A stretch of 41,438 nt of DNA from a bacterium (GTDB lineage: Bacteria > Patescibacteriota > Minisyncoccia > Phycocordibacterales > UBA2100): assembly GCA_030647655.1 (NCBI GenBank), contig JAUSJH010000013.1, positions 1 to 41,438 on the forward strand, written 5' to 3'. Made by a program: the position numbers and the translations under genes. This document shows positions 1,566-5,118 of the stretch, piece by piece. Each line of letters opens with the position of its first letter. The first letter of the stretch is position 1. Under the pieces are notes generated by a model, which made no database searches, was not told the DNA's origin, and worked only from the letters and a program-made list of their open reading frames with translations.

Positions 1566-1847
1566 ACCCTGTTAAATCCTTTCAAATCGATATGTACTTC
1601 TACACCTATGTGCTTCTGTCAGAAAAAGATAAGAAGTTCTACACTGGTTGTAGCGATGATTTGAAAGGACGATTTGAGGCGCACAACCGTGGACGAGTAC
1701 CTTCGACAAAATCTCGACGTCCGCTCGAACTCGTGTACTATGAGGCCTGTCGCGACCGCAAGGATGCTCGCCACCGTGAGTCATATCTGAAGACTCACCA
1801 CGGCAAGATGTTTTTACACAATCGCCTCAAATCGTATTTAACAGGGT
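1566..1847. repeat. 12-bp perfect inverted repeat ACCCTGTTAAAT / ATTTAACAGGGT bracketing the GIY-YIG ORF
   Basis: accctgttaaat at 1566-1577; reverse complement atttaacagggt at 1836-1847. Confidence 0.8.
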
Positions 1848-1861
1848 ATAAGAGCTTGTAA
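1592..1861 (+). CDS. Small standalone GIY-YIG nuclease family protein
   Basis: YTYVLLSEKDKKFYTGCSDDLKGRFEAHNRGRVPSTKSRRPLELVYYEAC..; GIY-YIG fold pattern, 89 aa. Confidence 0.9.
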   Translation: MYFYTYVLLSEKDKKFYTGCSDDLKGRFEAHNRGRVPSTKSRRPLELVYYEACRDRKDARHRESYLKTHHGKMFLHNRLKSYLTGYKSL

Positions 1862-4006: not shown

Positions 4007-5048
4007 TACATATGGCACTCCTCTAACAACAAGGAGCGATGAGGCAATTCAACATATTTAGAGGCACCAAGGGCTGGTTGAGCATGTACGAAAGCGTCAT
4101 ACGCTTCCGGTATATGAGAGACCAAAAAGAAGTAGATCGGCGGGTGAAGATCCTCGGGTTCTGGGAAGAACATGGAGGAAAGGCAACGAAAGACGCCTTC
4201 GGGGTTTCCAGACGCACCCTGTACCGGTGGAGCAAAGCCCTTCGGGATGGTGAGGGAAAGCTACCATCACTTGATCCGAAAAGTACAGCTCCCAAGAATC
4301 GCCGGAAGCGTATGTACGACCACCAATACGTCGAGAAGGTACTGGCACTCCGACGCGTACACCGAAAGCTCGGCAAGAAGAAGCTCGCGGTACTACTCGG
4401 CGTCTCCGAATCGTATGCAGGTCGCACCATCCTCGATCTCAAGAAACGGGGACTCCTTCCTGCATACGCTCGTATCACAACAACGAAAACAGGCCGTCTG
4501 CGGGTGAACGTACAGAAGAAACGCAAGAAACTGCGCCGTCCGAAGGAAGCGAAGCGAGGCATCGAGATCGACACCGTCGTGCGCTTCTCGGTTGCCGTGA
4601 AGCGGTACATCTACACCGCCATCGACCTTGAGCGTCGGTTCGCCTTCGCCGGTGCGTACGAGAGCCACTCGTCAAAGTCTGCTGCGGACTTCTTGCAGAA
4701 GCTCAGGACAGTCGCTCCCTTCGAGATCAAGAGTCTCCAGACCGACAACGGCTCCGAATTCGCCAAGTACTTCTCCGACGCATGTCGCGCGCTTCACATC
4801 GTGCAGTACCACACGTATCCGCGGACACCGAGGATGAACGCCCACATCGAACGCTTCAACCGGACCATCTCGGAAGACTTCATCGAGGAGCGACGGCTTC
4901 TCCTTGTCACCGACATCGATCGCTTCAACGAGGAGATGATTGACTGGCTCATCTGGTACAACACCGAACGTCCCCACGAGTCGCTGGGCATGCTCTCGCC
5001 TTTGCAGTATATTGTGAAGTCATTACCAGCACGGGAGTGCCAAATGTA
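4007..5048 (+). mobile_element. Insertion sequence (IS481/IS3-like rve family), copy 2
   Basis: Inner terminal inverted repeats tacatatggcactcc (4007-4021) / ggagtgccaaatgta (5034-5048), 14/15 match, around a DDE transposase; outer ends may lie slightly beyond. Confidence 0.75.
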
Positions 5049-5118
5049 CTGGACGCGTACAAAAGCTTGCGTTGTTGTACCGAGGAGTGTAATCTTTGTT
5101 TCGGAAAGGAAGGTGTGA
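4039..5118 (+). CDS. DDE/rve integrase-type transposase (HTH + integrase core)
   Basis: HTH ..KATKDAFGVSRRTLYRWSKAL..; catalytic region ..YIYTAIDLERRFAFAG..LQTDNGSEFAKYF..TPRMNAHIERFNRTISEDF..WYNTERPHESLGMLSPLQY; SD aaggag before ATG. Extreme C-terminus runs past the right IR. Confidence 0.92.
   Translation: MRQFNIFRGTKGWLSMYESVIRFRYMRDQKEVDRRVKILGFWEEHGGKATKDAFGVSRRTLYRWSKALRDGEGKLPSLDPKSTAPKNRRKRMYDHQYVEKVLALRRVHRKLGKKKLAVLLGVSESYAGRTILDLKKRGLLPAYARITTTKTGRLRVNVQKKRKKLRRPKEAKRGIEIDTVVRFSVAVKRYIYTAIDLERRFAFAGAYESHSSKSAADFLQKLRTVAPFEIKSLQTDNGSEFAKYFSDACRALHIVQYHTYPRTPRMNAHIERFNRTISEDFIEERRLLLVTDIDRFNEEMIDWLIWYNTERPHESLGMLSPLQYIVKSLPARECQMYWTRTKACVVVPRSVIFVSERKV

Follow-up and report, generated by a model that had tools for sequence, protein, structure and literature searches.

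The window, a 41,438-nucleotide stretch of a patescibacterial genome (904 kb in 21 contigs), carries secE (557-850), nusG (989-1531), and rplK (1889-2311), whose identities were confirmed by family search. Between nusG, its upstream neighbor, and rplK, its downstream neighbor, lies an open reading frame (1592-1861, forward strand) with an inferred product of 89 amino acids. The original prediction had recognized it as a GIY-YIG gene of the secE-nusG-rplK interval, and this assignment is borne out by a match to Pfam family PF01541 (E 2.9e-15) that scores 56.7 bits against a curated cut-off of 22.6 and so places the protein, a standalone nuclease, in the GIY-YIG superfamily. An alignment of 25 homologues of the protein revealed conserved residues Y6, Y17, G19, R27, H31, and R62/E63. 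The nearest solved structures by sequence are those of UPF0213/YhbQ-type proteins (PDB 1zg2, 1ywl), which have the same domain and the same size. In all, the genome holds seven standalone GIY-YIG genes and one UvrC-like gene; several of the six other standalone genes have terminal repeats and internal stems of their own.

The open reading frame is framed, as had been noted, by a perfect terminal inverted repeat: the A arm ACCCTGTTAAAT at 1566-1577 and its complement A' ATTTAACAGGGT at 1836-1847 (codons Y-L-T-G), the right copy indeed encoding the YLTGY of the protein. The 8-bp sequence TCAAATCG is likewise found at both 1582-1589 and 1827-1834, but its description as a direct repeat gives way to a different one: one copy is part of the left B arm, the other of the right C arm, and each pairs with the middle of the open reading frame. 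These arms belong to two further perfect inverted repeats that had escaped notice. Repeat B joins TCCTTTCAAATC in the untranslated leader (1577-1588) to B' GATTTGAAAGGA within the gene (1658-1669, codons D-L-K-G); repeat C joins C' ACGATTTGAGGCG (1669-1681, codons R-F-E-A) to C CGCCTCAAATCGT (1823-1835, codons R-L-K-S), both within the gene. All six arms are given on the forward strand, and each of the three repeats is 12-13 bp long. The arms follow one another in the order A B ... B' C' ... C A', and their points of contact leave virtually no base unpaired. Judged by its sequence, a single strand of this DNA can thus close into a perfect, uninterrupted three-way junction, with A as the outer stem, B and C as the inner stems, and coding sequence in the two inner loops.

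The cassette so defined is about 282 bp long (1566-1847) and extends from 1526 to 1888 when its flanking hairpins are included. The left hairpin, hpL (1526-1567, no strand assigned), is 92% complementary, begins over the stop codon of nusG, and reaches the cassette's left end; the same hairpin also adjoins GIY-YIG cassettes and gene-less elements in other genomes. A comparison of nusG-rplK spacers and of the right-hand hairpins (hpR) of other copies identifies the right flanking segment (1848-1888, no strand assigned), which ends at the start codon of rplK, as the counterpart of hpR; it is a degenerate hairpin in the window. The cassette folds with a z-score of -6.9 under RNA parameters and -6.7 under DNA parameters, and none of 100 shuffled sequences was as stable.

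The pairing of the arms is conserved. Among 27 aligned homologues from one order, with all three stems counted, 89% of stem cells were paired as compared to 80% in shuffles, double-sided changes numbered 86 as compared to 27, and the covariation score was 0.228 as compared to 0.090. Sliding the partner register by a single column abolished most of the covariation signal. Compensatory changes preserve the pairs of each of the stems, a mismatch at position 5 of arm A being tolerated. Stem B is informative in that only one of its arms is translated: where a leucine codon in that arm is TTG or TTA, the left arm, in the leader, has the matching C or T. A scan of named genomes showed that the arms are kept in about 76 of the best 80 homologues. 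This set spans many groups of Patescibacteria and two isolate genomes, NaphS2 and Desulfosarcina cetonica, as well as metagenome-assembled genomes with the labels Cloacimonadota, Bacteroidales, Aminicenantes, Thermotogaceae, and Elusimicrobia; among the arm-keeping homologues are some from Desulfobacterota, Bacteroidota, and Cloacimonadota genomes. A phylogeny of the homologues, built from 85 columns, was poorly resolved and too short to support claims of specific transfers.

Does the structure act in DNA or in RNA? A transcript-level element that controls expression of the GIY-YIG gene or of the gene downstream would account for the strong RNA fold and for the position of most cassettes, which are codirectional with the next gene and lie just upstream of its start codon. 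Among some 2,860 stem cells from 96 distinct cassettes, however, we counted 29 mismatches of the G·T kind and 18 of the A·C kind (a tally biased toward matches, as the B and C windows were picked for best pairing), which is no clear preference for wobble pairs. Because both kinds of mismatch are rare, the pairing looks to have been kept as that of Watson-Crick DNA rather than RNA, and the sequence comparison points to DNA as the level of pairing. Nor did the window locus contain an Rfam RNA, the four weak matches being miRNA-like chance matches to long hairpins. Median fold z-scores were -4.2 for cassettes with the three-way junction and -4.0 for further GIY-YIG genes belonging to that class, as compared to -0.8 for downstream controls and -0.2 for ordinary GIY-YIG genes, whose want of structure also speaks against control of a GIY-YIG gene through its transcript. 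We consider such an RNA-level role very unlikely.

The ordinary genes, which in these genomes differ from the cassette in having neither flanking repeats nor an excess of folding and which represent the UPF0213/YhbQ type, correspond to what we call class 1; among loci L059-L088 they can be recognized by the C-terminal motif KREAEIKxWxRxKKL. Members of other GIY-YIG subfamilies (L080, L075, L085, L087, L078, and L005) have quite different terminal repeats, for example one of 21-22 bp (CCCCCACAC..), and they too contain internal stems that are long and fall on the same codons. Self-folding genes may therefore be a wider class. Two further GIY-YIG genes of the window genome (G000), L002 (contig C20, at about 130 kb) and L006 (contig C5, at about 14 kb), appear by eye to lie directly before a tRNA and a tmRNA gene; at one of them a 12-bp terminal repeat extends to the start of the tRNA.

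Nearly all cassettes are 278-293 bp long, run from ACCC to GGGT, and sit in the loose context TTn|ACCC..GGGT|RAA, with the stop codon usually completed by the flank. Each contains one open reading frame, that of the GIY-YIG gene. The cassettes precede rplK, secE, rplJ, mutM, gatC, nusA, aspS, def, rny, and other unrelated genes (named from their translations, family search having confirmed rplK, nusG, and secE), mostly in the same direction and directly upstream of the start codon. At the secE site, 1 of 11 genomes in the genus of G343 was occupied. At the rplJ site, for which we read 30 loci from the genus of G392, there were one GIY-YIG copy and one gene-less element, L242, with the same ends as the cassette, and other congeners had a flanking hairpin only. 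These precise ends at unrelated sites, and the absence of the element at secE and rplJ in most congeners, lend good support to the original idea of a minimal mobile cassette, its movement being judged by comparison. The companion suggestion of a homing element received no support: homing endonucleases have a fixed cognate target with matching alleles that are intronless or element-free, whereas here the insertion sites are unrelated, no single gene is targeted, and the element lies between genes with neither an intron nor an intein.

No target-site duplication was seen at the flanks of the cassettes; the TTn and RAA of the flanks extend the palindrome, and the empty sites are too diverged to be scored. 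Insertion into pre-existing palindromes was rejected as a general rule, since the complementarity of the flanks exceeded the control at the 99% level in only two of 105 cassettes, the hpL/hpR subset and L168 being set apart. At L168 the terminal repeat runs on into the flanking DNA, giving an inverted repeat of 37 bp, and the copy is centered in a larger palindrome. An origin from phages or plasmids was also rejected, viral contigs and plasmids being devoid of homologues and phages having only distant ones.

How is the nusG-rplK site occupied in relatives? The cassette was present in only about two of 40 same-genus genomes, that of the window and G014, rather than in all relatives. In five others (G027, G013, G024, G017, and G041), the two flanking hairpins are again present and enclose a palindrome without a gene; most of the remaining spacers are short or consist of unrelated sequence. 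In G070, a member of the Taylorbacteria and of another family, a cassette is likewise found between nusG and rplK, its arms showing compensatory changes. The nusG-rplK spacers of loci L041, L058, L090, L042, and L055 contain gene-less long hairpins between flanking hairpins of the window type, with promoter-like sequence in their loops that may drive rplK.

Since the window genome and G014 share the cassette at the same site, it may here have been simply inherited, and vertical descent would suit an ordinary chromosomal gene whose arms arose by chance or by quasi-palindrome correction and have no function. We give that explanation next to no credence: it is at odds with the existence of matching gene-less elements and with a covariation that recurs, from phylum to phylum, at the same codons.

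Further copies flanked by ACCCTGTTAAAT, which had been envisaged for the window genome, were not found in a whole-genome search; cassette copies with the window's end sequence were found in other genomes. The window genome does contain a family of palindromes of the form TATACCCCGTGAGATAA..TTATCTCACGGGGTATA, on contigs C1, C3, C5, C7, C9, C14, C17, and C20 (loci L009, L012, L014, L016-L022, L024, and L025). Their interiors are unrelated and bimodal in length (about 31-37 or about 69-72 nt), and their ends are identical at 13 of 14 positions to the cassette ends of G070. We do not count the approximately 20 dispersed TATACCCCGTGAGATAA palindromes among the members of the cassette's family: no three-way fold was evident by eye, and no GIY-YIG gene was found with exactly those ends.

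The gene-less element L242 prompted a search of 397 genomes of the order for A arms lying 14-44 bases apart. Elements of about 45-65 bp, consisting of the ends of the cassette and two abutting hairpins and containing no gene, were found in 41 of these genomes. Elements of the GTTAAAT type occurred in 26 genomes (one for a reversed-pattern control) and elements of the GTGAAAT type in 22 (none for the control); neither pattern search returned an exact match in the window genome. Pattern matches were also found in 16 of 25 homologue-holding genomes of other phyla (none for the control), several of them with interiors that fall short of a clean double hairpin. A pair of perfect hairpins, directly adjoining and with stems totaling at least 8 bp, was present in 51 of 80 mini-elements as compared to seven of 400 shuffles. 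As read from its sequence, then, a whole mini-element would typically form a miniature three-way junction with the same topology as that of the gene, its interior being set by structure, with no shared sequence. The mini-elements are largely extragenic, 67 of 80 lying outside long open frames as compared to 33 of 158 control positions, and many are bordered by the hairpins that also flank the GIY-YIG cassettes. Beside genes, the two hairpins occur in either order, a further point against a role in the transcript.

The mini-elements track the gene. Of 28 genomes with a close homologue of the junction-forming gene, 20 contained them, but only 21 of 369 others did (Fisher p = 2e-16), and within families the overlap was 16 as compared to 6.3 expected (p = 5e-5). 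Exact-match mini-elements were missing from eight of the 28 gene-carrying genomes. Of the 41 genomes with mini-elements, 36 had some homologue at E < 1e-15; among the 21 without a close homologue, five had none at that threshold. The end sequence of the mini-elements also tends to match that of the gene: in genomes where the gene has GTTAAAT ends, the mini-elements number 32 of the GTTAAAT and 11 of the GTGAAAT type, and in those where it has GTGAAAT ends, there are 18 GTGAAAT and no GTTAAAT mini-elements, counts in which copies within one genome are not independent. The exceptions are G131, G230, and G194, in which a GTTAAAT gene is accompanied by GTGAAAT mini-elements only. It is mainly because the mini-elements track the gene and the end types match that we call the gene the autonomous partner.

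The same correspondence bears on the possibility that the cassette is a non-autonomous passenger of some other transposase, with the GIY-YIG gene as cargo. Its terminal inverted repeats do resemble the ends of insertion sequences, and an IS481-like transposase is encoded close by, at 4039-5118. Yet the mini-elements tend to have the end type of the GIY-YIG cassette itself, and the gene fills the cassette almost end to end, leaving no room for another. We find the passenger explanation scarcely credible. (The transposase was assigned from a match to NF033577 with E 9.5e-48, below the cut-off; positions 1-150 of the window, at the edge of the contig, contain the apparent 3' end of a second IS481-like copy.) The system does recall miniature inverted-repeat elements (MITEs) and their parent insertion sequences, in that coding and short noncoding elements have terminal inverted repeats in common, but here there is no transposase, no target duplication was seen, and the interior of the mini-elements is structural rather than shared sequence.

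A closer parallel is the REPIN/RAYT system (REPs, BIMEs, and REPtrons, with TnpA-REP, a Y1 HUH enzyme), in which short, structured, palindromic repeats are dispersed between genes and also flank the gene, in the same genome, for a single small enzyme that processes single strands (PMC3116915, PMC3733652, PMC8266576). In the present case, too, dispersed structured repeats share their arms and topology with the ends of an enzyme gene, by whose product they would have been dispersed, and multicopy extragenic repeats accompany the gene in 20 of the 28 gene-carrying genomes, the window's own not among them. The systems differ in that the enzyme here is a GIY-YIG hydrolase of 89 residues with that domain alone, whereas RAYT is a Y1 HUH transposase of the IS200/IS605 superfamily, and in that the repeat is a three-way junction, formed by the gene itself as well, rather than paired hairpins. 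GIY-YIG enzymes go unmentioned in PMC3733652 and PMC8266576 on REPIN/RAYT. In a limited search of the literature, we found no description of a link between GIY-YIG enzymes and repeats of three-way topology.

We infer that the standalone GIY-YIG nuclease is probably the autonomous partner of a REPIN/RAYT-like system, its cassette of about 282 bp belonging to a family of small, structured, mobile repeats. The enzyme would recognize the single-stranded, folded ends and make its cut at the ACCC/GGGT ends, at the junction, or close by. Cutting would mobilize or maintain both its own cassette and, in trans, the mini-elements, as RAYT transposases do for REPINs, although cleavage and movement are here proposed from the comparative analysis. 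Single strands could be supplied by lagging-strand replication or by DNA uptake in natural transformation. Because GIY-YIG enzymes hydrolyze DNA and, to our knowledge, do not transfer strands, the joining step would be carried out by host enzymes.

A different role, which we judge unlikely though worth weighing, is that of a sequence-specific, single-strand nuclease that targets the A arm or hairpin, cuts incoming single-stranded DNA at the repeats, and thereby modulates natural transformation, with the repeats spread by recombination rather than by the enzyme. The Neisseria nuclease Ssn, reportedly described in Nat Commun in 2025, is said to be single-strand specific and to have dispersed repeats as its targets. 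By that description, it shares with the present enzyme its small size, its standalone GIY-YIG domain, and repeat-like targets that surround its gene and recur elsewhere in the genome, much as target-like repeats are found here at both ends of the gene and dispersed in the same genomes. Such a role by itself leaves unaccounted for, however, both the folding of the gene into the three-way topology of the mini-elements and the precise ends of cassettes at unrelated sites. Were the Ssn work already to describe flanking repeats of this kind, the novelty of our findings would lie in the three-way junction and the mini-elements only.

A bolder version of the REPIN/RAYT-like reading, which we hold to be possible but somewhat doubtful, is that these elements are a separate class of mobile DNA. 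In such a class a single-stranded DNA three-way junction would be the transposition signal, the nuclease gene would be constrained in its codons to fold into the very junction that its product recognizes, and the product would disperse gene-less junction repeats across several phyla.

Finally, we consider what the REPIN/RAYT-like interpretation would mean. The gene-less mini-elements are a new finding, and the gene seems to be the member that encodes the enzyme in a previously undescribed family of small mobile repeats. The conserved ends and the matched mini-elements make specificity directly testable in vitro. If the interpretation is correct, the cassette would be a self-contained genetic element of very small size (282 bp) and a rare instance of protein-coding sequence under strong selection for self-complementarity of its DNA. 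Standalone GIY-YIG genes are abundant in Patescibacteria, with up to 10 GIY-YIG matches in a genome of about 0.9 Mb, and we know of no established role for them; a part of these genes would then be the enzymes of a repeat family that is comparable to REPIN/RAYT but is built on a different nuclease fold.
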